Origin: Geobacter sp.
GTDB lineage: Bacteria > Desulfobacterota > Desulfuromonadia > Geobacterales > Geobacteraceae
Assembly: GCA_003857395.1 (NCBI GenBank)
Contig: RPRC01000141.1
Coordinates: forward strand, 1 to 18,737
Direction of reading: 5' to 3'
DNA length: 18,737 nucleotides
Made by a program: the position numbers and the translations under genes. The notes under the pieces were generated by a model. The model worked only from the letters and a program-made list of their open reading frames with translations. It was not told where the DNA came from and ran no database searches. Within the stretch, counting starts at the first letter, position 1. Every line of letters starts with the position of its first letter. Positions 1,131 to 18,737 of the stretch are shown piece after piece.

Positions 1131-1160
1131 TGTTGTAGAAACTATCTTGCCTTGCCGGAA

Positions 1161-2036: not shown

Positions 2037-2045
2037 CGATACGGC

Positions 2046-2840: not shown

Positions 2841-2970
2841 CTGACTCTCAATTCATTTCAGTGTAAATCAACGGATTTCTCATCTGTCGCGGCAGCAAGA
2901 AACTTTGCTCATACTAACCTGCCTCGCGCTTTTTCTGGGGAGAGGTTTTCTGTGCCAGCCGGCCTGTGTG

Positions 2971-3190
2971 GAACTTTCCATCCGGAAACTCCAAAACAAT
3001 GCTATCCCCCATTGGGCTGGGGCTTTCTCTGAGTCTCTCGTACGGCTTTATGGCAAGACAGTGAAAGCAAGGAAAGCGCTTGAATCCAGCAGGTAGCCCG
3101 TTCTGTGTCTCGGGTGGCGCCCGATTACGAGAGGCTTCGAGGAAGTTCCAGCCCAGCACCTGCCGAGACTTTCCGGATGGACGCTAACTA
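2971..3190. repeat. About 220-bp imperfect inverted-repeat element
   Basis: The left end CTTTCCATCCGGAAACTC (2974-2991) is mirrored by GACTTTCCGGATGG (3167-3180). Inside, 3011-3040 (gggctggggctttctc...ctcgt) pairs imperfectly with 3127-3151 (acgagaggcttcgagg...ccagccc), so the whole block can fold into one long hairpin. The end motif GTTTCCATCCGGAAAC is the same as in the palindromes at 13443 and 17544. Small ORFs here (63 aa plus, 81 aa minus) have no ribosome site or recognisable domain and are treated as chance. The flanks 2841-2970 and 3191-3340 show nothing I can name. Confidence 0.55.
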
Positions 3191-3340
3191 AATGCTATGT
3201 TCTCAGTTCAGATGCTGAATCAGTGGTATGCCTGAACGTAAATGTTTTGATTGAAAAGGCTTGTAACAGAGGGCTGAGAAGGTCTTTCGTCGTTGACAAT
3301 ACCCTGATGAAGGTGCTATGTATCAGCAGAATAAATAAGT

Positions 3341-3465
3341 AATTCCAATTCCATATCAAGGCCCTCTCAGCGTTGGCTCGTCTTCAGCTGCTCAACGTAC
3401 TCTTCAGTACGCCTCGCAGCCTCAATCCTCGCCGCCTTGAGATCATCCTTGACCTGGAATTGGTA
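3341..3465. repeat. Long palindrome with GTAC-centred apex, family copy 1
   Basis: Outer arms CCAATTCCATATCAAGG (3345-3361) and CCTTGACCTGGAATTGG (3447-3463) are near-perfect reverse complements. The apex is CGTAC-TCTTCA-GTACG (3396-3411), followed by CCTCGCAGC, whose GCAGC pairs with GCTGC on the left. Copies at 13443 and 17544 share the same apex and asymmetric CTC bulge. The element ends 26 bases before the start codon of the next gene. Confidence 0.7.
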
Positions 3466-3490
3466 TAAAACGGTTTTTGGAAAGGGCGGA

Positions 3491-5686: not shown

Positions 5687-5812
5687 TTCATTAGCAGGCC
5701 TGGGTGTCTTTTCGCTTCTACCTGGTTTTCTGGATTCAGGTGCAGTTCTTGCGCGACAGTACAGGTGTCCTGATGTTTGTCTCAGGGACGAACTCTGCGG
5801 ACGAGGGAGAGC

Positions 5813-6472
5813 ATGACAGCCAGCAAAATTATTCCAGCAACTGATGCTATGACGCAATCCGGAATCGCTCCCCTTGTGTGGATCTGGTTCCCTGCAACCT
5901 TTCTGCTCTGTCTACTTTTTTTCTTGACGTGTTCTCCCGCTTTCGCAGGGGAATACCTCCTCTATCAGCCGAATCCGGTGGAGAGTGATGCGTCTCCGCA
6001 GCCTGGAGAAGGTGTCTTGGTGAAGAAAATCACTGTCAGGCGGGGGGATACCCTATCGGCCCTTTCCCGACAGTTCTCTGGGAAAGCCACCTATTTCCCG
6101 CAGATACTCCTGTTTAATAAAATACGTAACCCGAATCTGATCTATGCCGATCAAGAACTGCTTGTTCCTCTCTCCAGACCACTTCCAGCGCAAAAGCTAC
6201 GGCTCCCGGCTTCAGGGATGCCTGCCAAGTCCCGTGCTCGGTCCGCTACCCGTAATCAGACACAAGCAATTTTAAAAAATAGTGTCAAGAAGGAAGTGCC
6301 ATCAGCCGAGCGGCAGCTTTATGCGCAGGCTGAAGCTTTTTTTGCTCAAGGGAGATATCATGAGGCCCTTGACGGGTTTAACCTTTTTCTGAAAGAGTAC
6401 CCGCATTCCTCGCTGGTCCCCGAGGCAATCCTGTATCGGGGCGACTGCTTCCTCCGTCTTTCGGGGAGCTAG
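5813..6472 (+). CDS. Exported LysM + TPR protein (FimV-like layout)
   Basis: A 219-aa protein. ATG 5813 is favoured over the upstream in-frame TTG (5777) because GAGGGAGA precedes it by two to three bases. A signal peptide or N-terminal membrane anchor covers 1-45, with core WFPATFLLCLLFFLT and a possible cut at AFA/GEY. Residues 70-121 are a LysM peptidoglycan-binding domain (VRRGDTLSALSRQF ... FNKIRNPNLIYADQELLVPL). A basic linker follows, then a TPR-like unit at 163-216 (AFFAQGRYHEALDGFNLFLKEYP), much like the TPR of the upstream 731-aa protein. LysM plus TPR is the architecture of FimV/TspA proteins, which position pilus or secretion machinery at the cell wall; here that is inference. The protein ends in the second TPR helix (CFLRLSGS), shorter than expected for this layout, so it may be truncated. 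It lies 126 bp after the previous gene. Confidence 0.8.
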   Translation: MTASKIIPATDAMTQSGIAPLVWIWFPATFLLCLLFFLTCSPAFAGEYLLYQPNPVESDASPQPGEGVLVKKITVRRGDTLSALSRQFSGKATYFPQILLFNKIRNPNLIYADQELLVPLSRPLPAQKLRLPASGMPAKSRARSATRNQTQAILKNSVKKEVPSAERQLYAQAEAFFAQGRYHEALDGFNLFLKEYPHSSLVPEAILYRGDCFLRLSGS

Positions 6473-6771
6473 AATCTGGTTTGTCTCCTCGTACGAATTA
6501 CTCTCCGTTTCTATCAAGCATCAAACATAGCGTACGTCTGGATAAATGTCCTTTTTTGTGCCTTTATTCGCAAATACTTTTTGCACTAAGTGTTTTGTGC
6601 TCTACACGGGTGCTAAAGTAAACCCTATGTCCTGAGTCGACAGTATCCTTGCGGTATGTTAATGATAATATAGATCTCATGGAGATATCTGGCGCTCAGT
6701 TATCACCCGATATGATTAGTTCGGAGATGCTTCGAAGGAAGAAAGACCCCACGATAAATGATTAAAAAACA
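6473..6771. other. Intergenic stretch, nothing recognised
   Basis: AT-rich gap of about 300 bases between the LysM gene and the receiver-like gene. No ORF with a ribosome site, no strong hairpin with a T-run and no member of the window's repeat families was found here. Confidence 0.4.
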
Positions 6772-6801
6772 TTGACATTGAAGATAGTTGCGTGCGATAT
6801 A
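6772..6801 (+). promoter_or_regulatory. Possible sigma-70 promoter for the receiver-like/TM gene
   Basis: A perfect TTGACA (6772-6777), 18 bases, then GATATA (6796-6801) preceded by TGC, an extended -10 form. It sits 21 bases before ATG 6823, so the transcript would have a very short leader. The -35 is good and the -10 is weak. It would separate the genes from 6823 onward from the two upstream ones. Confidence 0.35.
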
Positions 6802-6822
6802 TACAAAATATGAGGGTTCTGT

Positions 6823-8013
6823 ATGCTTAATGTTTTTGTTATTTCCAGTGATAAAAGAGTTGATACCCTCATAGGGTACTTTCAGCCCTTTTTTAAGAGC
6901 AAGATACGCTGTGCCTCCGACTTTGACAACGGCCTGAAGGAAGTTTTCGAAAATCGGCCGTCGGTAGTTTTTATACAGAGCACGATTGGAACCGTTTCTG
7001 GTGAAACGGTGTCGAGGCATATAAAATCGCTCCTCGGGTCAGCATCGCCGCGAATTGTCTTCATGGGTGACATTGATAGTAAAGGCAAGAAAGGGACAAG
7101 CTGGTGTGATGACTGGATAAACGTCAGCGACTCAGCGCAGCAGTTGCAACAGGACTTTGCAGAACTTATTTCTCGAAGCTTTCCGGAGGATTGGCGGGAA
7201 ATTCAGCATGAGATGGATAAAACTGCATCCAGTGCTGCTGATAGCGCTCAAGATGATAGCAGTTCAGAAGAGGGGATTCCTGGTTATGTTGTATCCCGAC
7301 AGGGGGGGGCTGGGCACGCGGAAGTTGATGTGATTGGCGAGGCTGAAAATACATCGGTCCCGCAGAAAAGTGCTCGTTCTGGAACTGATATTTTGGGATT
7401 GAGCAGCGATATCGTAGAGGAAGAAGAATTCCCGGCCTATCAAAACCTTTATGATGACCCTTTGCTGGAGAGTGTCCTTCCCCCGCCGAAGCGTTGGTTC
7501 TCTGCGAAGTTTTTGACGGCTTTCATCCTGCTGGCAGTGGCGGGGATTGGTATCTACTTCTGGATGCTACACAATGGCGACAGCAAGATTCCTGCGACGC
7601 TTCCTCCTGTTAAGAATGCAGACCGTACAGCAACACCAGCGAAAAAAATCAAGGGCGGCATCAAAGGGCTGCCGTCTTTTGTGCGTAGTGAATGGCGTGA
7701 TGCTCCGTATGCGTTGCAGCATCCAGGATGGGAACGCTATGTTTCACCAGAGGTGGATTTCAGGATATTCAGGGAAAAGGACACGATAAAAGCTCTTCAG
7801 GGAATTAGCCTTGGTAAAAGAGGAGTTTCCAAGGCCTTTCTGGACAAAATTCTGGCACAGCTGGGACTCAACGGACCTTTTCCGGCTGGCAAAGAAGTTT
7901 TGAAAAACGGTTTTTTGGTGAAAACTTTTGTTTTTCCCGGGGTGGCTGAGCTCGTCACCTACCACGAGCAGGGTGGTACTGAAATCAAAGCCTTTGTACT
8001 GGAGTTTTCCTGA
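6823..8013 (+). CDS. Degenerate receiver-like domain + single TM + extracytoplasmic C-terminal domain
   Basis: A 396-aa protein with GAGGG six bases before the ATG. Residues 1-120 look like a CheY-type alpha/beta fold (MLNVFVISSD at strand 1, PSVVFIQSTIG at strand 3, RIVFMGD at strand 4). The position where a receiver carries its phosphoacceptor Asp is Gln52, and the acidic pair after strand 1 is reduced to SD, so phosphorylation is unlikely. A long acidic, Ser-rich linker (about 125-220) follows, containing an eight-G run at 7302-7309. A single transmembrane helix spans about 226-248 (KFLTAFILLAVAGIGIYFWML). The C-terminal 145 residues, basic near the membrane, would be periplasmic. I do not recognise that domain. 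Such a layout could pass a cytoplasmic signal across the membrane in the adjacent pilus-type system; this is inference. Confidence 0.7.
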   Translation: MLNVFVISSDKRVDTLIGYFQPFFKSKIRCASDFDNGLKEVFENRPSVVFIQSTIGTVSGETVSRHIKSLLGSASPRIVFMGDIDSKGKKGTSWCDDWINVSDSAQQLQQDFAELISRSFPEDWREIQHEMDKTASSAADSAQDDSSSEEGIPGYVVSRQGGAGHAEVDVIGEAENTSVPQKSARSGTDILGLSSDIVEEEEFPAYQNLYDDPLLESVLPPPKRWFSAKFLTAFILLAVAGIGIYFWMLHNGDSKIPATLPPVKNADRTATPAKKIKGGIKGLPSFVRSEWRDAPYALQHPGWERYVSPEVDFRIFREKDTIKALQGISLGKRGVSKAFLDKILAQLGLNGPFPAGKEVLKNGFLVKTFVFPGVAELVTYHEQGGTEIKAFVLEFS

Positions 8014-8113
8014 GAAGTATTTTGTTGCGCACTGTAATGTCTTGTGACATTAGTCTTCCCCTACTCTGGCAAGAGGGTAAATTTACTGCTGGTGCTTTAT
8101 TGACGGAGGTAGC

Positions 8114-9571
8114 GTGAAGCGGTACACCTGGCGACTGTTTTTTACTTTTTGTGTGGTTGTTATTTTTATGGCACTGGGTACTTCCGACTCCTTTGCCTTG
8201 GATCCCATGTTTGAACTTGATACAAAGGCTCTTCGCAGCAAGAATCCCCTGATCCCCAAAACCCCAAAAACCTCGAAAACTGATAAAGCGGTGTCTAAAA
8301 CGCAAGCTGCTGGTGGACCTCTCCAAAAACCACAATCTGACAGTACAGAAATAACAAGGCTCAAAGGAAAGCATGGTTCCCGTCGCGGAAGAGCTTCTTC
8401 GGGGCGTCGTACGAAACTGCTCCGAAAGTCTCAGGAGATAGCTAGGGCAAAGAAGCATCGTGAAATCAGAAGGGAGCAAGTATCCACGTCAGGTTCTCCC
8501 GGGATGGTACTGCACTCTTTTCGCATGGCAGCTGGAAGGGAGGGATCAATCCAGTGGACCAGGGATGTTTGGGACCGTCTCCTCCAACCCGGCCGGTATG
8601 AAAATGGTCCCCTGGTTGTTCAGGGGAGGAATTTTTCTCTTTCTCTTGATCCAAAACGATATCCCGTGTTTCCAGCAGCTGATGGCGGGAAGATTATTAT
8701 TGATGAAGGGATGACCCTGTCACCAATGGTAAAAACTATTCTGACGGAGAAAGATCCCGGGATCAGAATAGTAATGGGCAACCCTGCTGACCGGAAGAGA
8801 TTTTTCTCTTCGTTGCTTGCGGCAGCAAAATTTTATTCAGTTGAAGAGAATTTTGCCGTAGATTTTGGTGCTGACCCGAAACTGACCGTTACCTCTGATT
8901 TTAAGATAGAGAAGACCTCGGAAAGTCTGTTGAAAAATGATGTTGTGCTGGTCAATGTGACCGGGCAGCATAGGGGCATACCCCCGCAGTTGATTTCTTT
9001 CCTCGATAAAGAGGGTTTCCATGTGATTGACTCATCTCCGGCTTTTAGCGAGTTATCGGATGGCCGTAAGGTGTTGTACAGCATTGAGGGGAGTCGCCAG
9101 GATACGATAGTGGACGAACTATTCACGGCGCTCTCCGCCCCATGTGAGAAAAACAAGGATCTGCTGCTTGATGACGGTGCTCTGAGCGGTGTTACGTTGT
9201 CTGTGAGAGCTGATCGTTACAGTGAGGGTAACAAAAGAAAAGTAGTTATTTCTTTTTCCGAAAAAAACCCTGTGCAGTATACTTTGTTGCGGCTTCTTGA
9301 ACTCAAAGGGTACCGGGTTGTCATGCTCAATCCGGAAGACGACTTCAGGGAGATTTCTGAAAAGGTACTTTCTTCCTTGGGGTTACCCGCGGTATACGGT
9401 ATGCAGCCGCTCTGGGTAGACGACGGGACCCCATTCAATGTGAGGCTTTCCGGGTTCGTGTTGACGGGGAACGGACGAAATGGTGCACGCAGGTTTCTGA
9501 CAAATGTTCCCATAGATCCGCTTGTGGGAGAACTTGCCAGATACAAAGGGTTCGATGTCGTAGTACAGTGA
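8114..9571 (+). CDS. Exported protein of unknown function, 485 aa
   Basis: The start is GTG 8114, four bases after a clear GGAGG (8105-8109). A signal peptide covers 1-28 (RLFFTFCVVVIFMAL, cut near SFA/LDP). Residues 45-125 form a very basic, Lys/Arg-rich low-complexity region (GSRRGRASSGRRTKLLRKSQ) that could bind DNA, polysaccharide or cell wall. From about 135 on, a folded alpha/beta part includes DGGKIIIDEGMTLSP, DPGIRIVMGNPADRKRFF, KNDVVLVNVTGQHRG and, near the end, a similar-looking second half (VRLSGFVLTGNGRNGARRFL). I do not recognise the family. It lies 100 bp after the receiver-like gene and 34 bp before the PilB-type ATPase gene, so it probably shares a transcript with the motor gene and acts in the envelope. 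Confidence 0.7.
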   Translation: MKRYTWRLFFTFCVVVIFMALGTSDSFALDPMFELDTKALRSKNPLIPKTPKTSKTDKAVSKTQAAGGPLQKPQSDSTEITRLKGKHGSRRGRASSGRRTKLLRKSQEIARAKKHREIRREQVSTSGSPGMVLHSFRMAAGREGSIQWTRDVWDRLLQPGRYENGPLVVQGRNFSLSLDPKRYPVFPAADGGKIIIDEGMTLSPMVKTILTEKDPGIRIVMGNPADRKRFFSSLLAAAKFYSVEENFAVDFGADPKLTVTSDFKIEKTSESLLKNDVVLVNVTGQHRGIPPQLISFLDKEGFHVIDSSPAFSELSDGRKVLYSIEGSRQDTIVDELFTALSAPCEKNKDLLLDDGALSGVTLSVRADRYSEGNKRKVVISFSEKNPVQYTLLRLLELKGYRVVMLNPEDDFREISEKVLSSLGLPAVYGMQPLWVDDGTPFNVRLSGFVLTGNGRNGARRFLTNVPIDPLVGELARYKGFDVVVQ

Positions 9572-9605
9572 CGCCAAGGGGCTGTGGCCCAACAGGAAAA
9601 TTTGT

Positions 9606-11540
9606 ATGTCAATAAAGAAACTCGGTGAAATCCTTCTCGAGAGCAACCTGATAACCGAACCGCAGCTTCATGAGGCTCTTGAACTTCAGAAGTCATTTCC
9701 CGGTGAAACCATCGGCAGGCTTTTGTGTCGGCTTGGTTTTCTCAAGGAGTCTGACCTTAATTATATCCTGGAACAGACCGGTAAACGAAAAAAACTGGTG
9801 GATATTCTGCTTGAACAAGGTTTGGTAACCGAGAAAAGTATCGAACAGGCTCGTGTCTCGAGCAAAAAAGATAACATCCCCTTGGGAAAATCTCTTGTCA
9901 AGCTCGGGTTTTTGACAGAAGCGCAGATGGCACGGACAATCTCTGCCCAATACGATCTGCCGTTTGTTTCTCTCGGTACTATGCAGACTGATCCGGATTT
10001 TGCACGTTTCATAAACGCCAGCTATGCCCAAAAACAGCAGATCGTTCCGATCTCCAAGATCGGCAGTACCCTTACCCTCGCCATGGCCCAACCCATCAAG
10101 CTTACAGAACTGAAAGAGCTTGAGACAGCGACGCGACTGAAGATAATTCCCGTTATTGCCCTAGAGTCTGAAATCCTGACGGCACAACAGCGACTCTACA
10201 AAATCCAGCAAGCCTCCTCTTCCCTTTCCATTGAAGATGAAATGAACCTCGATATTCCCGACAGTATTTCGGAGATCCTTACCAAGACTGACTTTTACGA
10301 TGAGCCGGATATTGAAGACGAGGTAAAGAAGGTAACGGAACGGGACAGCGTAATTGTGAAGCTGGTCAATAAAATTATCTATGACGCTTACCAGAAACGG
10401 GCATCAGACATCCATATTGAGCCATATCCCGGCAAGAACGATATCATTGTCAGGATTAGAATCGACGGACGCTGCAAGATTTATCAGAAAATCCCCTACA
10501 AATATAAATACGCAATTCCCTCCCGTATCAAGATCATGTCGGATCTGGATATTGCTGAGAGACGAAAACCGCAGGACGGCAAGATTAATTTCAAAAAATT
10601 CGGACCAATAGACGTTGAGTTGAGGATTGCCACCATGCCCACGGTCGGGCAGCTTGAAGATATTGTTATCAGGATTCTTCACACTGGCGACCCCATTGCC
10701 TATGAAAGTCTCGGTCTTACTGAACGGAACAAGCAGGTCTTCGAGAAAGCGATTACAAAACCGTACGGTCTCATTCTCGTTGTGGGTCCTACCGGCGCGG
10801 GGAAGACAACAACCCTTCACTCGGCGATTGCACTGATAAATAAACCTGAGACGAAGATATGGACCGCAGAAGATCCCGTGGAGATTACCCAAAAAGGTTT
10901 GCGGCAGGTACAGGTAAATCCCCGCATCGGTCTTACCTTCGCGGCGGCGCTTCGCTCATTTCTGCGTCTGGATCCCGATATCATTATGGTTGGCGAGATG
11001 CGTGACGAAGAAACAGCGGCGATAGCCATTGAGGCTTCTCTGACAGGGCACCTGGTTTTTTCGACCCTGCACACCAACACCGCTCCTGAGACGCTGACCC
11101 GCCTTCTGGACATGGGAATAGATCCATTCGCTTTTGCTGATTCACTGCTGTGCGTTCTGGCCCAGAGGCTGGCTCGGAGACTCTGCAACAATTGTAAACG
11201 AGTGTACCGTCCCGATGCAGTCGAACTGGAAGAGATAATTGCCGAGTACGGGGTAGAGCAGTTCCGCTCCAACGGCCTGGTGTTCGATGACTTGACGCTA
11301 GCCGAGCCGGTTGGCTGTGAGGAATGTGGTAATACAGGCTATCATGGTCGTCTCGGTATACATGAACTTCTTGAATGTAGCGATGAGATCAAGGGGCTCA
11401 TCAAGAGAAAGCCTGAAGTGACGGAGATCAGGCAAACGGCAATTTCCGATGGCATGACCACCCTGAAGCAGGATGGTATTCTGAAGGCATTCCAGCACTT
11501 GACAGATATTCATGAAGTACGCAGGATCTGCATTAAATAA
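9606..11540 (+). CDS. pilB: Type IV pilus/type II secretion assembly ATPase (PilB/GspE family) with MshEN-type N-terminus
   Basis: A 644-aa extension ATPase, complete. The N-terminus has four MshEN-type half-motifs at 5-28, 35-57, 63-86 and 92-115 (pattern xLGxxLxxxGxIxxxxLxxALxxQ), followed by a T2SSE_N-like fold to about 205. The second and third copies are degenerate. The ATPase core has ASDIHIEP (276-283), Walker A GPTGAGKT (394-401), Asp box AEDPVE (421-426), Walker B DPDIIMVGEMRD (456-467 with Glu464) and His box GHLVFSTLHTN (481-491). The zinc cysteines Cys527, Cys530, Cys571 and Cys574, typical of PilB/GspE and absent from PilT, are all present. It powers pilin or pseudopilin assembly at the inner membrane. 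AGGAAAA precedes the ATG. pilB is used in the family sense; GspE or MshE paralogues cannot be excluded because no pilin or platform gene is in view. Confidence 0.93.
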   Translation: MSIKKLGEILLESNLITEPQLHEALELQKSFPGETIGRLLCRLGFLKESDLNYILEQTGKRKKLVDILLEQGLVTEKSIEQARVSSKKDNIPLGKSLVKLGFLTEAQMARTISAQYDLPFVSLGTMQTDPDFARFINASYAQKQQIVPISKIGSTLTLAMAQPIKLTELKELETATRLKIIPVIALESEILTAQQRLYKIQQASSSLSIEDEMNLDIPDSISEILTKTDFYDEPDIEDEVKKVTERDSVIVKLVNKIIYDAYQKRASDIHIEPYPGKNDIIVRIRIDGRCKIYQKIPYKYKYAIPSRIKIMSDLDIAERRKPQDGKINFKKFGPIDVELRIATMPTVGQLEDIVIRILHTGDPIAYESLGLTERNKQVFEKAITKPYGLILVVGPTGAGKTTTLHSAIALINKPETKIWTAEDPVEITQKGLRQVQVNPRIGLTFAAALRSFLRLDPDIIMVGEMRDEETAAIAIEASLTGHLVFSTLHTNTAPETLTRLLDMGIDPFAFADSLLCVLAQRLARRLCNNCKRVYRPDAVELEEIIAEYGVEQFRSNGLVFDDLTLAEPVGCEECGNTGYHGRLGIHELLECSDEIKGLIKRKPEVTEIRQTAISDGMTTLKQDGILKAFQHLTDIHEVRRICIK

Positions 11541-11576
11541 ATTCCTTTCCCCCTTGCTTTTCCCCCCTTCTCCCCG

Positions 11577-13160
11577 CTATTTATTCGTGCCTGCGCATTG
11601 TTTGAAATGGACGACATTTTCGCAGAATTTAAGTCCCGTCTCCAAGGAGATTTTGTTTTCTCTTACAAGCCGAGCCAAGGCGATATCAATGGATTCATAC
11701 TCTTCAGATGACTGCTGGAGCATGCTTCTTATCTGGTGGGTTTTCCCTTCACGGATCAGGTTTCTGGAGCGGACGCTGCCGATAAGTTTTTCCAGAGCAA
11801 GGACAACGCCGGTTTTGTTGATCTTTGGGACTAACCGCTGATTCAGGATCATTACGAAGCTTTCCGCCAACTGAACCCTGATCTGCTGTTGCTGCTGTGG
11901 AGGAAAAACGTCGATGATCCTCTCTATGGCTGAGGTGGAGGTATTGGAGTGCATGGTGCTGAGAACCAGGTGCCCGGTTTCGGCGGCCTGGATTGCTATG
12001 GCAAAACTTTCCGGATCACGCATTTCACCAATAACTATGACATCCGGGGCCTGCCTGAAAATATGCCGGAGTCCCTCGTGAAATGAGTCTGTGTCCAAAC
12101 CGATCTCGCGCTGGTTGACATTGCTGCACTTATGCTTGTGAAGGTACTCGATAGGATCTTCTATGGTGATGATGTTGCAGTGTCTCTTCCTGTTGATCAG
12201 GTCGAGAAGGGCTGCAAGGGTAGTCGTCTTTCCATGTCCGGTAGGACCTGTTATAAGGATGAGTCCCTGGGTCTTGAGGGCATATTCCTCAATCCATGGC
12301 GGCAAGCCGAGTTCCGCGACTGTTGGAATCGTTTCATTGATGTGGCGGACGGCTATGGAAATGGAGCTTCTTTGTAGATAAATATTGATTCTGAACCTGC
12401 CGATATCCGGATAGGTGTGGGCAAAGTCCAGCTCTTTCATCCGTTCGAATTCCTCTCTTTGCGTCACGCTCAACAACTCCCGAGCATAATAGAGAGTATC
12501 CTGTGGGGTCAGGAAGGTACTTGATATCCTGACAACATCAGTATCTTTTTTTAGGCAGGGTGGTGCCCCCGCCGACAGGAGGAGGTCTGATGCTTTCTGA
12601 TCTACAAGCATTTTGAACAATTGTTTGAGCTCGGTCAGATCGGAAAGGTGGTGTTGCTTCCTGACATGTGCTTCGATATCCGCACCCCTGAGTGGTTCAG
12701 ACAATTTCCCACCCAGATCTTCAATAATATTCAGCGCGGCGTTTATCTGGATAGCGGCCATTACGACCGGCTGAACACTCCTGCCGATAAAAAACTCGAT
12801 TTCCTTGACGGCGTTATAGTCGTGCGGTTGAACCATGGCAACGATGATACTTTTGCTGCTGGCCGCAATCGGCAGAGCTTCATGCTGCTTCATTTTTTCG
12901 AAAGGCAGCAGATTTATTACCGTGTGATCGATTTCCATGTTGTAGAGGTTTACGGTGGGAAGGCCCAATTGCAAGCCTAGCGGTTCCTGTAGTTCCTCCG
13001 CCTTCAGGTATCCAAGTGTGAGCAGGACCGATCCGAGATGCTCACCCGTTTGTGTCTGGACTTTTAAAGCCTTGGCTAGCTCAACTTCAGTGATTAGCTG
13101 GCAGGCTAGCAGGATTTCACCCAGCTTCATGTCTTTTGATTCAGGTAATGATATTTGCAT
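11577..13160 (-). CDS. pilT: PilT-type retraction ATPase fused to an N-terminal MshEN domain
   Basis: A 527-aa protein from ATG 13160, with AAGGG nine bases upstream; the GTG at 13169 overlaps that site and is less likely. Residues 12-35 and 41-64 are two 24-residue MshEN motifs separated by exactly five residues, followed by a T2SSE_N-like fold to about 155. From about 174 the protein is PilT: DLTELKQLFKMLVDQKASDLLLSAG, Walker A GPTGHGKT (305-312), Asp box IEDPIEYL (333-340), Walker B APDVIVIGEMRD (371-382, Glu379), His box TGHLVLSTMHSN, and RSRNLIREGKTHQI (475-488), a version of the PilT AIRNLIRE motif. The zinc tetracysteine motif of PilB is absent. PilT proteins are normally about 340-380 aa without this front domain. 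It converges on the extension ATPase with a 36-bp gap, so the two are transcribed separately. Retraction activity is inferred from family. Confidence 0.92.
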   Translation of the reverse strand: MQISLPESKDMKLGEILLACQLITEVELAKALKVQTQTGEHLGSVLLTLGYLKAEELQEPLGLQLGLPTVNLYNMEIDHTVINLLPFEKMKQHEALPIAASSKSIIVAMVQPHDYNAVKEIEFFIGRSVQPVVMAAIQINAALNIIEDLGGKLSEPLRGADIEAHVRKQHHLSDLTELKQLFKMLVDQKASDLLLSAGAPPCLKKDTDVVRISSTFLTPQDTLYYARELLSVTQREEFERMKELDFAHTYPDIGRFRINIYLQRSSISIAVRHINETIPTVAELGLPPWIEEYALKTQGLILITGPTGHGKTTTLAALLDLINRKRHCNIITIEDPIEYLHKHKCSNVNQREIGLDTDSFHEGLRHIFRQAPDVIVIGEMRDPESFAIAIQAAETGHLVLSTMHSNTSTSAIERIIDVFPPQQQQQIRVQLAESFVMILNQRLVPKINKTGVVLALEKLIGSVRSRNLIREGKTHQIRSMLQQSSEEYESIDIALARLVRENKISLETGLKFCENVVHFKQCAGTNK

Positions 13161-13281
13161 GATTGACACCCTTAAGAATATCGCTTAATGACTGAGGACT
13201 TCTGTGAAATGGGTTATTGTATTTCTAGGAAATATAATAATGCGAGAAATATTGCAATGAAATAATGCTCTGTAGCACATA

Positions 13282-13431
13282 ATCAATTATGATGCTTTCG
13301 CAAATTCGCTGAGCTGTCATCTCGACCGACAGGGAGAGATCTTGTAACCAGTTGTAAAAGCAAGATTCCTCCCTCTGGTCGGAATGACAAAATGTAGCGT
13401 ATTCACACTTTTTGCGAGTGTATCAATTATG
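13282..13431. repeat. Composite inverted-repeat element with 10-bp direct repeats
   Basis: Identical ATCAATTATG 10-mers lie at 13282-13291 and 13422-13431, 140 bp apart. Just inside are TGATGCTTTCGCAAA (13290-13304) and its imperfect inverse TTTTTGCGAGTGTATCA (13409-13425), the outer motif also seen at 1169-1304. The core 13315-13389 is an imperfect palindrome from TGTCATCTCGACCGACAGGG to CCTCTGGTCGGAATGACA, a different hairpin type from the 1206-1285 core. It lies upstream of the minus-strand PilT-type gene. Confidence 0.7.
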
Positions 13432-13442
13432 GTTAACTTATT

Positions 13443-13587
13443 TAGTTTTCATCCGGAAACGGTTCTTTTTTGCCCTGGCTGTGTCAATCCGTGGGCTTAC
13501 TTGTGCGGCGTACCTGTGTACGCCTCCGCGCAACCCCTTGATTTTCTTGCCAGGACAAAAAATCCCTCGTTTCCGAATTGAAAACCA
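13443..13587. repeat. 145-bp long palindrome with GTAC-centred apex, family copy 2
   Basis: Outer arms TAGTTTTCATCCGGAAACG and CGTTTCCGAATTGAAAACCA pair with each other, as do CCTGGC (13474-13479) and GCCAGG (13549-13554). The apex is GCGTAC-CTGT-GTACGC (13509-13524), followed by a CTC bulge and CGCGCAA pairing with TTGTGCG. It aligns end to end with the equal-length copy at 17544-17688, and several differences between the two preserve pairing. Confidence 0.75.
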
Positions 13588-13624
13588 ATAGTTTCACATC
13601 CGGAGTTTCCGGATGGAAACTATT
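13587..13624. terminator. 16-bp hairpin abutting the palindrome, terminator-like
   Basis: Arms 13587-13603 and 13609-13624 pair over 16 bp with one bulged A (13596) and an AGTTT loop. The arms repeat the GTTTCCATCCGG end motif of the neighbouring palindrome. TATATATTTTA follows, which is only partly T-rich. It may end transcripts in this gap or be a spare end of the repeat element. Confidence 0.4.
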
Positions 13625-13722
13625 TATATATTTTACCGGCCTGGAAACGCCAGAATTCAGACTTTGGTGGTTGCCGATGGAAGTTCAGAACATCAAAGGA
13701 GTCTAAAGGAAAACATAACAGC

Positions 13723-13736
13723 ATTACTGTAGTAAT
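13723..13736. promoter_or_regulatory. Possible operator palindrome beside the FAS1 promoter
   Basis: ATTACT-GT-AGTAAT is a perfect inverted repeat ending two bases before the -35 box of the promoter at 13739. The position suits a dimeric regulator, but the identity of any regulator is unknown. Confidence 0.3.
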
Positions 13737-13738
13737 AT

Positions 13739-13767
13739 TTGATAATATGCAAGTGTTAGGCTATAAT
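13739..13767 (+). promoter_or_regulatory. Sigma-70 promoter for the FAS1 gene
   Basis: TTGATA (13739-13744), exactly 17 bases, then a perfect TATAAT (13762-13767). It predicts a start near 13774 and a leader of about 64 nt before ATG 13838. This is the best sigma-70 match noticed in the window. Confidence 0.6.
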
Positions 13768-13837
13768 TATAGTCAAGAAATAACAGAATAACTGACCGGA
13801 CATTACACAAGTACGTGACTTGTCAGGGGAGGAAGAA

Positions 13838-14266
13838 ATGAAAGATATCTTTGAAACCCTAGAGGCGGATGATTCGTTCCGAAACCTTGTCGATGCCTTG
13901 AAAAGTGCGGGTCTGGAGGAGACCCTGAAAGAAGCAGGGCCTTTTACCCTATTTGCTGCGGATAACGTTGGTTTCCTGAAACTGAGTCTTGAAGAGATTC
14001 TGGCTGACAGCAAATTATTGAAAGAAACACTACTCTATCACCTTGTGGAAGGTAAGTTGTCCGAAGAAGACCTCCGGGCAATGGATTGTTCTCCTACGCT
14101 GAACGGTAAAACTCTGGCTGTTAGAGTCAGGCATGGGGTGCTGGTTGTTGACAACGGAAACGTGACCAGGGCTGACATTGAATGTTCCAATGGTGTCATT
14201 CACGTGATCGATTCCGTTTTCAGGCCTAGTTTGTCGGGCTGGTACGGGGATTGTGGCTGCTGCTGA
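13838..14266 (+). CDS. Fasciclin (FAS1) domain protein without signal peptide
   Basis: A 142-aa protein consisting of one FAS1 domain. It shows the H1 block (GPFTLFAADNVGF, compare the usual TVFAPTDxAF), the central YH block (LLYHLVEGKLS) and the H2 block (NGVIHVIDSVFRP). GGGGAGG (13826-13832) five bases before the ATG fixes the start; an upstream in-frame TTG (13820) precedes that site and is rejected. FAS1 domains usually sit in exported or surface proteins and mediate adhesion. Here no signal peptide, lipobox or membrane helix is visible, so the product should stay in the cytoplasm unless exported by another route. The C-terminus is Cys-rich (GDCGCC). The last 41 bases overlap the convergent DUF4080 gene. 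Confidence 0.85.
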   Translation: MKDIFETLEADDSFRNLVDALKSAGLEETLKEAGPFTLFAADNVGFLKLSLEEILADSKLLKETLLYHLVEGKLSEEDLRAMDCSPTLNGKTLAVRVRHGVLVVDNGNVTRADIECSNGVIHVIDSVFRPSLSGWYGDCGCC

Positions 14267-15995
14267 AGGGTGGTAGAGGGGAAAACACCTCCACCCGTAG
14301 ACCCCGTGCCGAAGCGGATACATAGACGAAGATCAGGTCGATCAGACCCGGAGTCGGGGGAGTGGTCCTGTAATCATGAGTAAAACGGGCAGTAAAGGTA
14401 CGAACTCTGCTGCCTGAGGGTTTATTCACCCCGGCCAGGACCGCATCGATGGTTTGCCGTGGCAGCGTCTCCCTGACCGGTCTCCATTCCACGCTGAAAA
14501 AAGATGGTATGACCCCTGCTGAGGGATATTCTCCCAGGCAAAAATCGTAGCAAAGTGCATCCTGGAAGTCACTGATCGCTTCCTTGGGCAGGGTTCCTTC
14601 ACTGAAATGCCAGATTCGTTCAAAGAGACCCTTTAGCGAGACCTGTACGGCTTTCGTCTCCTTTTTCATGAAACTCGCCATGGTGTCGAAAAAGTCTGTC
14701 AGCGGGAGATATCTTGCTACTGTTGCGAGCGAGCGGCTGAAGCGCTCGCTGTTGAAGTAAAGATCCAGAAGTCGGGATAATTCCTCGATGTGTCCTATTT
14801 CGTCGAAGGAGAGGTCAGGTGTACGCAATATCGTGTAGGGAGGAGTTGCGGAAAAGGCGTACTCTTCCCGGACAGCAATCTCGGTCATGGGGGAACCTTT
14901 GAGGACTTTTAACGGTTCGACCTGAATGTGATGGGGGTTGACGGGAAAGAGTCGTCCAAGGGAGGTGAGAAACCCCTGGTAATCTTCGCCCGGCAGTCCG
15001 GCAACCAGGTCCAGATGGACCGTCACTCCGGTTTCATCCCTGAGTCGTTTTACCATGGCCAGAAGAAGATCCGGGTCACTTTTTCTGCTCACGCGGGAAA
15101 GAGTTTCCTTGCCGGTTGCCTGAACCCCGATCTCGAACCGGAACATTCCTGCCGGCACCCTGGACAGTCTTCGCAGATTTTCCTCTGTCAGCAGGTCAGC
15201 AGCAATCTCGAAATGAAAGGTACTTGTTTTGTTGTGCGCAAGGATGAAGTCCCATATTTCATCCGCCCGCCCGGCATCGTAGTTGAACGTCCGGTCCACC
15301 AGCTTCACCACGTGGACTTCCTTTTGGATGAGGTAAAGGATGTCAGCGTGAATCCTCTCCATGGAGAAGGAGCGGACGCCCTTTTCCAGTGACGAAAGGC
15401 AGAATGCGCAGCTGAAAGGGCAGCCGCGGGATGTTTCGTAATAGACCAGTGGTTTGGTCGTGTCGACCAGATCCAGGGCGAAGGGGGAGGGGATCTCATC
15501 GAGATTTTCGATGGGATCCCTTTCCCGTGCGGCAACGATACCTGTCTCGTTTCGGTATGCTATGCCAGCGGGCATTGCGTCTGGGTTTATCGCTGTGTCC
15601 GCATTTTTTACCAGGTATGTCAGGAGTTCCTGCCAGCTTGTCTCTCCTTCCCCGCAAATAACAAAGTCAAAGGCACTATTGTCTCGGAGAAACTCTTCCG
15701 CGGAATAGGAGACCTCGGGGCCTCCTGCAACCAGGAGTGTTTCCGGTCTCACCAGTTTCAAATCTGCGGCAATCCGCGTTACCGCTTCAACGTTCCAGAT
15801 GTAGCAGGAAAATGCCACCAGATCCGCTTCCTCGCTGATGAGTTCGCGGAGAATCCCTGTACGTTGTTCGTTAACGGTGAACTCCCGAATGACGCTCTGG
15901 ATTCCCGCCATTTTGTTCGTTGCCGCTTTCAAGCAGGGCAGTGCCAGCGATGCGTGAATAAATTTTGCGTGAAGGGTTGTTAGAAGGATTTTCAT
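14226..15995 (-). CDS. B12-binding-domain radical SAM protein (DUF4080 type)
   Basis: A 589-aa protein. Residues 1-130 form a cobalamin-binding-like Rossmann domain (ADLVAFSCYIWNVEAV, TLLVAGGPEVSYSAEEF, FVICGEGETSWQELL). The radical SAM core follows with the 4Fe-4S motif CxxxCxxC at Cys192, Cys196 and Cys199 (SRGCPFSCAFC). Core elements include VVKLVDRTFNYD and FRFEIGVQATGKETLS. The C-terminal part (about 380-560) corresponds to the DUF4080 region found with such proteins. The family makes a 5'-deoxyadenosyl radical from SAM; the substrate is unknown. The start is ATG 15995, with no obvious ribosome site upstream. The low-complexity end (PPFSSSHNPRTSPTN) is encoded in the region overlapping the FAS1 gene, so the native C-terminus may have been extended by loss of an earlier stop. 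Confidence 0.88.
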   Translation of the reverse strand: MKILLTTLHAKFIHASLALPCLKAATNKMAGIQSVIREFTVNEQRTGILRELISEEADLVAFSCYIWNVEAVTRIAADLKLVRPETLLVAGGPEVSYSAEEFLRDNSAFDFVICGEGETSWQELLTYLVKNADTAINPDAMPAGIAYRNETGIVAARERDPIENLDEIPSPFALDLVDTTKPLVYYETSRGCPFSCAFCLSSLEKGVRSFSMERIHADILYLIQKEVHVVKLVDRTFNYDAGRADEIWDFILAHNKTSTFHFEIAADLLTEENLRRLSRVPAGMFRFEIGVQATGKETLSRVSRKSDPDLLLAMVKRLRDETGVTVHLDLVAGLPGEDYQGFLTSLGRLFPVNPHHIQVEPLKVLKGSPMTEIAVREEYAFSATPPYTILRTPDLSFDEIGHIEELSRLLDLYFNSERFSRSLATVARYLPLTDFFDTMASFMKKETKAVQVSLKGLFERIWHFSEGTLPKEAISDFQDALCYDFCLGEYPSAGVIPSFFSVEWRPVRETLPRQTIDAVLAGVNKPSGSRVRTFTARFTHDYRTTPPTPGLIDLIFVYVSASARGLRVEVFSPLPPFSSSHNPRTSPTN

Positions 15996-16093
15996 GGGGG
16001 CTATTGTAGCGGAGATTGCTGGTCATGGACAGCAGAAGTTGCTTTCTCCAGCAAGAGAACGTGCGATGTTGCTTCAGTCTCAGACCTGAATTC

Positions 16094-16138
16094 AACCCAC
16101 CTCAATCCCCCTTTATCAAAGGGGGATTGAGGTGAGTT
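16094..16138. repeat. 17-bp-stem hairpin repeat (CAATCCCCCTTT type)
   Basis: CACCTCAATCCCCCTTT (16098-16114) and its perfect reverse complement (16118-16134) flank a three-base ATC loop, with three more outer pairs after one mismatch. This AATCCCCC...GGGGGATT hairpin type is a common intergenic repeat in many bacteria. It lies between two divergent radical SAM genes and could act as a bidirectional terminator, although neither T-run is long. Confidence 0.7.
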
Positions 16139-16191
16139 CTTGCCGGGAACCCTTTTTTTTGTTAGGGTTGTCATTCAACGGAGGGAGAACA

Positions 16192-17517
16192 ATGCGAACG
16201 AAATCAATGCCCAAGCTTCTCTATGCGGATGCGAAGGGAAACATATACGATCACCCGGAACTCTGCATGGCGGGGATGAATGGCCCTGAAGCAGTTCTTC
16301 CGGAAGCTGTGGAACTCATACCGCTTCCGGAGGGAAGCCGGATCTTTACGATCCCCGGCACCCCACCCGTGGCGTGGGACGAAAAGCGAAAACAATTTAT
16401 GACCCTGGACTCGGTCAGGGAAGGGAAGCGCAGGGCGCCGATCCAGGCCGTCTCCGCTTTCATGGCGCCCGGCTATGTGCGGACCTTGCTTCCTGCCTGC
16501 GATTACAGCCGGAAAAAAGTGCATCTGCCCCTCTGGTCCTATACCGCTGTTGGCTGGGACGAGGAGCGGGACTGTTTCGTGGTTGCCGCCAGTCGGGTCG
16601 ATACCAATGACAACTGGAATCCCTGTAACTACGACGACCGGGAGCTTGATCCCCTGGTGCGGCGCCTTCTGGCCGAGATGCCTGATAACCGGCTTCTGGA
16701 GCAGTTGGCGCGCTGCGCCCTTGACTACCACTGCTTTGCCGCGAAAAACCTCTTCTATCGGCGCTGGGAGGCGCCCCTCCCCACCTCTCCGACCTGCAAC
16801 TCGCGCTGTCTCGGCTGTATCAGTCTCCAGCCTTCCGATTGCTGTCCCTCCAACCAGGAACGAATTAATTTTGTTCCGACAGCGGAGGAGATTGTCCAGC
16901 TGGCTCTTCCCCATCTCCAGGAAGCCCCGGAGCCGATCGTTTCCTATGGGCAAGGGTGCGAAGGTGATCCGATAATGCAGGCGGACGTGGTTGCAGAGGC
17001 AACCAGAAGGCTGAAAAAGGGAACCAGTCGCGGAACGATAAACTTTAATTCCAACGGTTCCATGCCGGATCGCATCAGGATGCTCTGTGACGCCGGCATG
17101 GACTCCATGCGTTTTTCTCTGAACTCGGCGCAGGAAAAATACTATGACAAGTATTACCGGCCGGTGGACTATACCTTTTCCAACGTCGTTGAATCGCTGA
17201 AAATCGCCAAGGAGAAGGGCCTTTTTGTTATGATCAACTACCTCGTATCACCGGGCCTGAGCGATGAAAGACGGGAGATTGATGCGCTTCTGAAGCTCAT
17301 CGGCGATACCGGTGTGGATATGATCCAAATGAGGAATCTCTCGATTGACCCGGATTTCTACAACAAAAGGATGGGGCTTTCCGGGAAAGGAATCGGTATG
17401 TACCGCATGCTCCAACAGATAAAGAAGGAATTTCCGCGCATCCAGTTCGGGTATTTCAACCGGACGAAGGAAAACTTTTATCCTCCGGATCTGGAGAAAA
17501 GCTGGCCTATCGACTGA
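16192..17517 (+). CDS. Radical SAM protein with about 200-residue N-terminal extension
   Basis: A 441-aa protein. The start at ATG 16192 has GGAGGGAG upstream; the frame is open to 16132, but that stretch contains a hairpin repeat. The first 195 residues form an uncharacterised domain with conserved-looking Trp, Cys and His positions (CMAGMNGPEAVLP, CDYSRKKVHLPLW, NPCNYDDRELDPLVRRLL). The SAM/4Fe-4S motif is CxxxCxxC at Cys202, Cys206 and Cys209, soon followed by a Cys-Cys pair (217-218, SDCCPSNQ). Later core blocks include IVSYGQGCEGDPIMQ, TINFNSNGSMPDRIRML and GMDSMRFSLNSAQEKYYDKYYRPVDY, typical of the radical SAM barrel. The family is clear and the substrate is not. It is transcribed divergently from the other radical SAM gene; no partner gene is visible. 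Confidence 0.85.
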   Translation: MRTKSMPKLLYADAKGNIYDHPELCMAGMNGPEAVLPEAVELIPLPEGSRIFTIPGTPPVAWDEKRKQFMTLDSVREGKRRAPIQAVSAFMAPGYVRTLLPACDYSRKKVHLPLWSYTAVGWDEERDCFVVAASRVDTNDNWNPCNYDDRELDPLVRRLLAEMPDNRLLEQLARCALDYHCFAAKNLFYRRWEAPLPTSPTCNSRCLGCISLQPSDCCPSNQERINFVPTAEEIVQLALPHLQEAPEPIVSYGQGCEGDPIMQADVVAEATRRLKKGTSRGTINFNSNGSMPDRIRMLCDAGMDSMRFSLNSAQEKYYDKYYRPVDYTFSNVVESLKIAKEKGLFVMINYLVSPGLSDERREIDALLKLIGDTGVDMIQMRNLSIDPDFYNKRMGLSGKGIGMYRMLQQIKKEFPRIQFGYFNRTKENFYPPDLEKSWPID

Positions 17518-17543
17518 TCAGTGAAAGATTGATTCATTCCAGT

Positions 17544-17688
17544 TAGTTTCCATCCGGAAACGGTCCTTTTTCGCCCTGACAGCGTCAATCAGCGGTCTTG
17601 TTTGTGCGACGTACAGTAGTACGTCTCCGCACAATCTCTTGATTTCCTTGTCAGGACAAAAAAATCCTCGTTTCCGAATTGGAAACCA
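17544..17688. repeat. 145-bp long palindrome with GTAC-centred apex, family copy 3
   Basis: Outer arms TAGTTTCCATCCGGAAACG and CGTTTCCGAATTGGAAACCA pair, as do CCTGACA (17575-17581) and TGTCAGG (17649-17655). The apex is ACGTAC-AGTA-GTACGT (17609-17622) with a CTC bulge, flanked by TTGTGCG and CGCACAA. It begins 26 bases after the stop of the radical SAM gene and may also serve as its transcription end. Confidence 0.75.
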
Positions 17689-17757
17689 GTTAGTTTTGCT
17701 GTTCTTGATTCGCTTGACAAAAGTCCTCCCTCCTTTGTATGTGCAAAAGGGTGGGTG

Positions 17758-17816
17758 TGTAGGGGCAGGCCCCTGTGCCTGCCCAAATCATGGGCAACCA
17801 CAGGGGCCTGTCTACA
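17758..17816. repeat. GGGGCAGGCCCCTGTGCC-type palindromic repeat
   Basis: TGTAGGGGCAGGCCCCTGTG on the left is matched in inverse by CACAGGGGCCTGTCTACA on the right, giving a 59-bp imperfect hairpin. Elements starting GTAGGGGC are a common dispersed intergenic type in bacteria. Confidence 0.6.
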
Positions 17817-17932
17817 ATATTTCGAGAATTTGCTTACGTTACAAATCCGCTGACCTCTTTTCTTCCTCGTAAAGACACCTTCCAAATTTGTACCTATTCA
17901 GCTTAGGTAGTACGGACAGCGGGAATTTGTAT

Positions 17933-17982
17933 CCCCTCCCTTGACGAACCTAGCTCCGGCGCGCAAGCGGGAGGGGTTTTTT
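17933..17982 (+). terminator. Rho-independent terminator inside a structured region
   Basis: CCCCTCCC (17933-17940) pairs perfectly with GGGAGGGG (17969-17976), followed at once by six T. The 28-base loop is large for a terminator. Around it, TACCTA/TAGGTA (17891-17909) forms a small hairpin, and ACAGCGG...CCGCTGT plus TATCC...GGATA give an alternative outer pairing that shares two C residues with the terminator stem. It insulates the sigma-28 promoter just downstream from the radical SAM side. Confidence 0.65.
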
Positions 17983-18042
17983 AGGATACCGCTGTTTCTT
18001 TTAGGAACGTGCTGAGTTACCCAGGCTATTTCAATTTTTTTC

Positions 18043-18069
18043 TAAAGTTTTTTCTCTGCATGCCGATAA
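18043..18069 (+). promoter_or_regulatory. Flagellar sigma-28 (FliA) promoter, exact consensus
   Basis: TAAAGTTT (18043-18050), exactly 11 bases, then GCCGATAA (18062-18069). Both blocks and the spacer match the published enterobacterial FliA consensus at every position, so chance is very unlikely. The start should fall near 18077, about 48 nt before the small ORF at 18125 and 183 nt before the MshEN-array gene at 18260. This puts the downstream gene or genes in the late flagellar class if the organism has FliA. Confidence 0.85.
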
Positions 18070-18124
18070 AGTCAAAATGTAACGGACTAATGTCCTTTCC
18101 ATTGATTTTAGGGAATTGGCCAAT

Positions 18125-18250
18125 ATGATTAAAACAAGAGATGGCGACTGCCGGATCACCTCGGCAGAGTCCTCTCGGGCCATGGTACTCCCTGCAATCA
18201 CGAGCAATATACAGGAAATGGCAATTGCGAAATATGGCACAAGCAACTGA
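18125..18250 (+). CDS. Small ORF, 41 aa, first in the sigma-28 transcript
   Basis: ATG 18125 to TGA 18250 encodes a polar 41-residue peptide (MIKTRDGDCRITSAESSRAM ...). A possible ribosome site, AGGGA, lies ten bases upstream, and the spacer between them is a perfect 10-bp palindrome, ATTGGCCAAT (18115-18124). It is in the same frame as the MshEN-array gene and ends nine bases before it, and its TGA overlaps that gene's GAGGA ribosome site. It could be a small protein or a leader cistron that couples translation. No known family is recognised; it is not obviously FlgM. It may be non-coding. Confidence 0.35.
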   Translation: MIKTRDGDCRITSAESSRAMVLPAITSNIQEMAIAKYGTSN

Positions 18251-18259
18251 GGACCCAAC

Positions 18260-18737
18260 ATGGCGTCACAAATAAAAGCCGGACGTTACATAGGCCAGAT
18301 ACTGGTGGATGGCGGATTCGTGTCTTCCCGAGATTTGGAACTGGCACTGGAGGAGCAGCGGGCTACCAACGAGTTGCTGGGCCAGGTGCTTACCAAAATG
18401 GGTGTCATTGATCCGATCGACCTCAAGGTGGCTCTTTCTGTTCAGGAGCAGCTCGTCCATCTGGAGGATGCCGTTAAGGCTGCGGCAGGTGTTCGCCAGA
18501 TGCTTGGCGCACTGCTTTTGCAGGCAGGGCAGATCAGTGAAGAACAGCTCGAGCGGGCTATCGCCGAACAGAAAAAGAGCGGCGGAAAGCTTGGAGAAAT
18601 CTTTGTTCGGCTCGGCTTCCTCACGGAACGACAGCTTACTGCACTGCTGGATTTTCAGAAGGGCCAAGAGGAACTGCCGTCGAAAATCAGTCCTTTAAGG
18701 TTGGGTGATATTCTGGTTTCCGCGGGCCATATTTCCC
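18260..18737 (+). CDS. MshEN-motif array protein, N-terminal 159 residues (3' end outside window)
   Basis: ATG 18260 follows GAGGA by six bases and an in-frame TGA; the frame stays open to the window end. The visible part is almost entirely copies of the 24-residue MshEN half-motif (xLGxxLxxxGxIxxxxLxxALxxQ) at 10-33, 39-62, 81-104, 110-133 and a fifth starting at 147. Copies 1-2 and 3-4 are each separated by exactly five residues, matching the paired 24+5+24 layout of the c-di-GMP-binding MshEN domain. So two full domains and the start of a third are present before any ATPase region. The first motif residue, usually Arg, is Tyr, Leu, Met, Lys and Arg in turn, so some sites may not bind. What follows, an ATPase or only more motifs, is unknown. 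The sigma-28 promoter upstream suggests co-expression with flagella. Confidence 0.85.
   Translation, partial: MASQIKAGRYIGQILVDGGFVSSRDLELALEEQRATNELLGQVLTKMGVIDPIDLKVALSVQEQLVHLEDAVKAAAGVRQMLGALLLQAGQISEEQLERAIAEQKKSGGKLGEIFVRLGFLTERQLTALLDFQKGQEELPSKISPLRLGDILVSAGHIS

Follow-up and report, generated by a model that had tools for sequence, protein, structure and literature searches.

An MshEN array behind a sigma-28 promoter in Geobacter as a candidate c-di-GMP receptor joined to the signal sequence of a pilin-like surface protein

The gene examined in this work lies at the right-hand end of a stretch of 18,737 nucleotides from Geobacter sp. (assembly GCA_003857395.1, contig RPRC01000141.1, positions 1 to 18,737, forward strand), hereafter called the window. 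It starts with the ATG at 18260, and its frame, of which 159 residues are present, is still open at the window end. A sigma-28 (FliA-type) promoter precedes it, and its product begins with an array of MshEN half-motifs of the type found in receptors of cyclic dimeric guanosine monophosphate (c-di-GMP). The features are as follows; residue counts refer to the 120 homologs listed from the first of two protein searches.

18043..18069, + strand: sigma-28 (FliA-type) promoter TAAAGTTT-N11-GCCGATAA, 0 of 16 positions mismatched
18070..18259, + strand: leader of 190 nucleotides, delimited from the sequence
18260..18736, + strand: 5′ part (159 codons) of the putative receptor/signal-sequence/pilin-like-domain gene, an open frame
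18287..18358, + strand: half-motif 1, YIGQILVDGGFVSSRDLELALEEQ, module 1, Y10-Q33, from the sequence; Gly3 in 115/120, Gln24 in 117/120
18374..18445, + strand: half-motif 2, LLGQVLTKMGVIDPIDLKVALSVQ, module 1, L39-Q62; Gly3 in 118/120, Gln24 in 109/120
18500..18571, + strand: half-motif 3, MLGALLLQAGQISEEQLERAIAEQ, module 2, M81-Q104; Gly3 in 119/120, Gln24 in 108/120
18587..18658, + strand: half-motif 4, KLGEIFVRLGFLTERQLTALLDFQ, module 2, K110-Q133; Gly3 in 120/120, Gln24 in 120/120
18698..18736, + strand: half-motif 5, first 13 of 24 residues, RLGDILVSAGHIS, module 3, R147-S159; complete in the orthologs P0003 and L001

The initial annotation had counted at least five half-motifs. Four are complete in the window, with the five-residue spacer present twice (residues 34-38 and 105-109), and the fifth is there with the 13 residues given above. 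No Pfam match to a T2SSE ATPase (PF00437) was obtained in the 159 residues, as had been annotated, nor in the full-length orthologs L001 and L002, by which an ordinary GspE/PilB ATPase is ruled out for the orthologs. The Pfam MshEN family (PF05157) gave no match in the window part of the gene either, while residues 77-136 scored above the cut-offs of DUF4388 (PF14332; 26.8 bits, cut-off 25) and DUF2949 (PF11165; 26.5 bits, cut-off 24.2). The array is identified as MshEN_N because the near-identical protein P0003 matches both MshE (5htl, E 6.7e-8 with module 2) and PilF (8pdk, E 4.6e-7 with full-length P0003) in phmmer searches. In the PilB encoded by the window itself, PF05157 covers residues 116-201, and we take it to represent the MshEN_C half there. 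According to PMC5013675, the isolated MshEN_N of MshE still binds c-di-GMP. The window further contains two convergent ATPase genes at 11577-13169 (-) and 9606-11540 (+), each with a PF05157 MshEN domain before T2SSE; the product of the minus-strand gene (530 residues) looks PilT-like, for which an MshEN domain would be unusual.

The remainder of the protein can be read in its orthologs. Over its 159 residues, the window gene is 97% identical to P0003 (352 residues), 91% to L001 and 88% to L002; the scan of genome contigs returned L001 and L002 plus one weak match, L003. A full protein of the P0003/L001 type (about 352 residues) comprises six half-motifs, equal to three MshEN_N modules, followed by a hydrophobic stretch such as LLTSILVGILALAAMPDAEA and a C-terminal domain of about 130 residues. 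Homologs were collected in two protein searches, in each of which about 8000 candidates sharing most words were scored and only proteins of a limited length range were admitted. The best 120 of 317 and the best 120 of 183 were listed, and counts are given for n = 120 from the first and n = 119 from the second (239 in total).

The ligand positions are strongly conserved in the first of these sets. At half-motifs 5 and 6, Gly3 is kept in 120 and 119 and Gln24 in 118 and 120 of the 120 homologs, in line with the values listed above for half-motifs 1 to 4, and position 2 is Leu or Ile in at least 115; half-motifs 4-6 are the strictest of the six. The first residue varies more. In the window it is Y, L, M, K and then R, with the canonical Arg in the fifth half-motif only, and among the 120 homologs it is R, K or L in 48, 87, 39, 113, 115 and 90 at half-motifs 1 to 6, Y, P and M being frequent at half-motifs 1 and 3 and lying outside the published consensus. 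The extended consensus in PMC11731258 includes K and L and leaves Y and M outside, and there K and L accompany very tight binding (6 nM) in PilF GSPII-B. In the AlphaFold2 model of P0003, module 1 superposes on MshE with bound c-di-GMP (5htl) over 56 residues at 0.7 Å, and the modules are modelled as four-helix bundles as in 5htl. With MshE MshEN_N (5htl) and Thermus thermophilus PilF GSPII-B (8pdk), the array shares the paired 24-residue half-motifs with the five-residue spacer, the Gly3 and Gln24 ligand positions and the predicted four-helix bundle. It differs from both in having three modules without an MshEN_C half and without an ATPase, and in running into a putative signal sequence and then a putative exported domain. 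The matches to MshE and PilF and the conserved ligand residues agree with a c-di-GMP-receptor-type array, as initially annotated.

Directly behind a half-motif end, all listed homologs (120/120 and 119/119) carry a hydrophobic stretch of 12 residues, and the same check on open reading frames of the surveyed relatives' loci gave 30/30, this set overlapping with the listed homologs. The stretch begins 1-2 residues past the ligand Gln in 101/120 and 94/119, with at least one Lys or Arg at its start in 239/239. In the c-region behind it (n = 239), 143 proteins have AxA, 80 the looser and permissive pattern [AVSTG]xA, 7 a lipobox and 9 none of these. In the P0003 model (mean predicted local distance difference test score 78.6), a single helix at 189-214 unites the last ligand helix with the hydrophobic segment. 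The segment is signal-like, and its short positive n-region, hydrophobic (h-) region of about 15 residues and AxA-type site suggest an internal Sec-type signal sequence. Eight of the 119 proteins of the second search have three CXXCH haem motifs past the segment, and 6/119 have a strict lipobox; such payloads need export to be made and agree with the export direction of the segment. From sequence and model we infer a topology with a cytoplasmic MshEN receptor, a membrane segment and a periplasmic output.

For the C-terminal domain, 30 of the 50 matches listed in a predicted fold search were chaperone-usher pilus subunits or pilin domains, and the modelled domain resembles a donor-strand-type, pilus-subunit-like fold. 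In Foldseek, nothing reached E ≤ 0.001 for the full-length model, and a single protein, the cannula protein CanA, did so for the model of the C-terminal domain alone. No Pfam match was obtained for the domain, including none to SCPU (PF05229), and a plain SCPU pilin was not supported by hhalign against 41 SCPU pilins, which returned a probability of 0.8%.

With regards to the promoter, the exact match claimed in the initial annotation is the sole sigma-28 site in the window when up to three mismatches are allowed. In a control of 200 shuffles, 0.13 matches were expected at this threshold, and 23 of 200 shuffles held at least one. All five closest orthologs retain the site, with 0 mismatches upstream of the window gene and 2, 1, 2 and 3 upstream of the orthologs in G001, G002, G007 and G164, respectively, and in 0 of 26 other genes with the MshEN cassette. 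The chance level for these 31 genes is 0.18/31 (first-order Markov resamples, 100 per gene), the reverse strand gave 0/31, and two more of the 31 have a site with four mismatches. When the five upstream regions were compared in ungapped register, mean pairwise identity was 0.81 at the 16 motif positions versus 0.29 at 120 flanking positions, and the best same-shaped flanking window reached 0.50; judged by this comparison, the DNA around the conserved site is near random or unalignable among the five.

FliA itself was found above its curated cut-off in G001, G002 and 12 of 18 further genomes including G007 and G164, and is encoded by all four closest relatives. Genome-wide, sites with at most three mismatches numbered 81 versus 41 for a reversed control pattern in G001 and 77 versus 32 in G002, a roughly twofold excess, by which around half of them are background. 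In these two genomes, sites with at most two mismatches precede genes for flagellin, FlgM, CheW, PAS-CheW, CheY-like and methyl-accepting chemotaxis proteins. Of ten FliA-site genes scanned, which were selected by eye out of 30, seven belong to flagellar or chemotaxis families, and the rest are a hemerythrin, a DUF327 protein and one without a match. Because the site is conserved, FliA is present in the relatives and the same motif stands before flagellar and chemotaxis genes, the window gene is very probably a member of the FliA regulon of its clade. Like the FliA-dependent genes of flagella, it has an exact FliA-type promoter conserved in orthologs, but its product would be a receptor linked to a surface pilus and neither a flagellar nor a chemotaxis part. 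FliA control common to the whole cassette family was rejected, as sites with at most three mismatches occur only in the five closest of the 31 genes. Upstream of the further MshEN/C-terminal-domain genes in the survey of L122-L141, no site with up to four mismatches was seen; here, each frame was started at its first Met, which in L126 is internal, so that the negative does not properly extend to L126.

The leader between promoter and gene is without an Rfam family at the gathering threshold in the scan of the window. An open frame of 41 codons within it (MIKTRDGDCRITSAESS..., 18125-18250, +) stops 9 nucleotides upstream of the ATG, and no counterpart was noticed in the L001 leader on inspection by eye. 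At 17925-17992, in the gap that separates the promoter from the upstream gene, inverted stretches rich in G+C and a run of T suggested a terminator, which was rejected since its folding is no better than that of shuffles (z -0.84) and it is absent from the consensus scan.

In the relatives, the gene is tied to chaperone-usher pili. Flanks were fetched for 19 MshEN-bearing C-terminal-domain genes (L001, L002, L070-L076, L123-L131, L133), and a chaperone and/or usher lies near 16 of them. The three exceptions are L070, with SCPU pilins at the contig end, L133, with pilin-like matches only, and L076, with none before the contig end. L077, which has half a module, adjoins an SCPU gene. Several genes in which the C-terminal domain follows a plain signal peptide adjoin an usher as well (L122, L132, L136, L140, L141), and in G175 the usher is about 3 kb away; none was found beside the plain-signal genes L078, L137, L138 and L139. 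No pilus genes were detected near L134 and L135, in which a response-regulator receiver (REC) domain precedes the C-terminal domain, and in three of nine genomes checked no usher was found. With archaic (SCPU/Csu-type) chaperone-usher pili, the gene shares its place beside SCPU pilins, a PapD-type chaperone and an usher in relatives, as well as the predicted donor-strand-like fold. It differs in that its C-terminal domain has no SCPU match or profile similarity to the 41 SCPU pilins, and in that the literature searches whose topics are given below listed no chaperone-usher subunit with its signal sequence preceded by a c-di-GMP receptor.

A possible second link to the messenger lies in the RNA of these loci. 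In each of the four core relatives whose downstream DNA is readable (L001, L002, L070, L071), a c-di-GMP-I and a c-di-GMP-I-GGC riboswitch stand in tandem after the MshEN/C-terminal-domain gene and before the pilin genes, on the same strand. L072-L078 gave none, and within L122-L130 a single riboswitch was found in L124 and another in L126 only, both on the opposite strand. In the L001 aptamers (11415-11505 and 11628-11718), the first G of GGC is A in the first and G in the second, which, by the specificity rule for such aptamers, may mean different cyclic dinucleotides. Many Geobacter GEMM-I aptamers sense cyclic GMP-AMP instead (PMC6456294). The loci resemble the Geobacter GEMM-I regulons covered there in having tandem GEMM-I riboswitches before surface or pilus genes, and differ in that one product of the locus additionally carries, as a fusion, a putative protein receptor for this class of messenger. 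Two c-di-GMP-I riboswitches each are also present in L084 (12864-14363) and L086 (7445-8942), close to cassette genes with payloads of the fibronectin type III/immunoglobulin (FN3/Ig) type. Beyond the pilus operon of L001, the gene at 17107-18591 (-) encodes a P-loop/AAA-type ATPase with one N-terminal MshEN-like module and overlaps the frame of a PilZ-domain gene (18528-18935, -).

The MshEN array and its hydrophobic segment recur before other proteins. When the L001 protein was compared with 196 relatives of G001, matches were obtained in 174 at E ≤ 1e-5 and in 44 at E ≤ 1e-30, and many strong matches are limited to L001 residues of about 8-221, mostly in frames of 395-1156 residues. Payloads behind this cassette include FN3/Ig repeats, CAP domains, lipoproteins and CXXCH cytochromes, in species including Geomonas oryzae and Geobacter sp. 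OR-1, and the form with the C-terminal domain is present in Syntrophotalea carbinolica DSM 2380 (P0035). In a tree of 47 chosen cassettes (midpoint root), the sequences sort largely by payload. The C-terminal-domain forms split into two groups, at 87/77 and 79/65, and a single branch (98/90) unites the remaining payloads, with cytochrome and CAP forms interspersed; we read this grouping as the exchange of payloads behind a single lineage of cassettes. The C-terminal domain in turn is preceded by three modules, by a single module (L074-L076, L131), by a REC domain with a hydrophobic segment (L134 in G606 and L135 in G572, with Pfam support for the receiver domain in L134), or by an ordinary N-terminal signal peptide (e.g., L122, L132, L136, L140, L141). 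As MshEN and REC are unrelated inputs before the same exported domain, the prefix is argued to be regulatory. Cassette and signal sequence stand before three-CXXCH proteins in P0156, P0211, P0215, P0226, P0233, P0235, P0237 and P0239, which could give the messenger a direct input into electron transfer. In P0221 (587 residues), a receiver domain, a triple MshEN cassette, a lipobox and a lipoprotein domain are combined in one chain.

The promoter and its conservation, the array with its ligand residues, the signal-like segment, the payload types and the neighbourhood with its riboswitches in relatives can be read from the sequences. On this basis we propose, at slightly better than even confidence, that the gene encodes a FliA-driven inside-out signalling surface protein, in which a c-di-GMP receptor gates export, processing or anchoring of the pilin-like part. 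In this scheme, the first 200 or so residues would lie in the cytoplasm and fold into three successive four-helix MshEN_N modules able to bind c-di-GMP, and the last ligand helix would continue into the internal Sec signal sequence. Through this signal, the pilus-subunit-like domain (about 130 residues) would cross the inner membrane and reach the chaperone-usher system encoded downstream. As the most likely way of working, c-di-GMP bound beside the h-region would alter targeting, membrane retention or cleavage by signal peptidase, so that the messenger would determine whether the pilin-like part is let go or retained. In motile cells, where FliA is active, the sensor would be made ahead of landing, and the riboswitches before the pilin genes would tune pilin supply to the same messenger class. 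Binding of c-di-GMP by the protein, the direction of its effect and the step that is gated are what we infer. The wider suggestion is more tentative, and we would put it at somewhat under an even chance: the cassette may be a portable c-di-GMP-sensing export signal of Geobacteraceae and Desulfuromonadales-type bacteria, in which the last ligand helix of the triple MshEN_N module serves as the Sec n-region, and pilus subunits, adhesin-like FN3/Ig proteins, lipoproteins, CAP proteins and multihaem cytochromes would thereby depend directly on the messenger for their export, processing or anchoring.

The chief alternative to export gating starts from LapD of Pseudomonas, an inside-out system with a cytoplasmic c-di-GMP receptor, a membrane segment and a periplasmic output on surface attachment, in which the messenger is bound via a degenerate EAL domain accompanied by HAMP and a protease-binding periplasmic domain. 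In the same manner, the signal sequence here would stay uncleaved and the protein in the inner membrane, where the c-di-GMP state would be passed to the periplasmic pilin-like domain, and this domain would hold or free chaperone-subunit complexes or the usher, as a regulator and not a subunit. A ligand helix running into a membrane segment suits such conformational coupling, three modules exceed the needs of a mere targeting tag, and REC in place of MshEN (L134, L135) is what would be expected for a signalling input. The likeness would extend to the order of a putative cytoplasmic c-di-GMP receptor domain, a membrane segment and a putative exported output; however, no Pfam match to a LapD-type degenerate GGDEF-EAL, to HAMP or to the protease-binding periplasmic domain was obtained in the window part or the full-length orthologs, and the segment in the membrane resembles a signal sequence of the cleavable kind, its short h-region being followed by AxA or a lipobox in most of the family. 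Moreover, the same cassette stands before lipoproteins, cytochromes and CAP proteins, which usually act once released, and a plain N-terminal signal peptide is likewise found in front of the C-terminal domain. We regard an uncleaved anchor of this kind as rather unlikely.

Two further explanations were considered. The initial annotation had proposed the array as a candidate c-di-GMP buffer, sensor or adaptor linking flagella with the pilus motors encoded nearby. In the relatives, however, the array is predicted to lie in the cytoplasm ahead of an internal signal sequence and an exported domain, and it is linked to a chaperone-usher pilus and not to the PilB/PilT-like ATPases of the window. A soluble buffer and an adaptor to the type IV motors were both set aside as the principal explanation, since the signal-like hydrophobic segment follows the array in every one of the 239 listed homologs, which are of limited length range. 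A sink, made together with the flagellum and lowering free c-di-GMP in motile cells with three sites per chain while the exported part is incidental, would be in keeping with three modules with conserved ligand residues under a FliA-type promoter, yet single-module forms (L074-L076, L131) stay next to the membrane segment, indicating that the modules serve coupling rather than capacity, and the chaperone-usher neighbourhood would be left unexplained; we hold this to be very improbable. Only a little more probable is the view that the cassette serves docking or targeting, its MshEN fold being retained for contacts with proteins while the dependence on ligand is gone. The N-domains of secretion and pilus ATPases contact their membrane partners, and the first residue of half-motifs 1 and 3 is mostly a non-consensus one. 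Ligand binding can be lost in domains of the MshEN type, as in XpsE (PMC5013675), and PilF GSPII-A is likewise without it (PMC12002112). Nevertheless, Gly3 and Gln24, which ligand contacts require, are kept in 108-120 of the 120 homologs at all six half-motifs, whereas XpsE lost such ligand residues together with binding (PMC5013675).

c-di-GMP acts on transcription, RNA, enzymes and motors and, via LapD, on periplasmic proteolysis, and we know of no example of a receptor joined to an exported protein's own signal sequence as a control point at export. The published MshEN fusions in PMC5013675 include those with receiver, HD-GYP, CheA, CheX, cyclase and kinase domains. By title and abstract, no work listed in searches on MshEN fusions (with signal peptide, fibronectin, usher or cytochrome), on c-di-GMP with chaperone-usher systems and Geobacter, or on FliA with chaperone-usher systems describes the architecture, and an earlier listing is possible in the supplement of PMC5013675, which tabulates MshEN fusions and lies outside this scope. 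There is a fair chance that the MshEN-signal-sequence fusion, akin to known c-di-GMP receptor fusions and inside-out signalling, is a new kind of export control.

If the proposal holds true, c-di-GMP control would take place at export itself, across several payload classes including cytochromes and pili, and would form a post-translational counterpart of the riboswitch. For the organism, the gene would connect the expression of flagellar genes with attachment by pili in concrete molecular terms. With c-di-GMP as the 'settle down' messenger, such an arrangement could let the cell decide internally when a protein goes outside.
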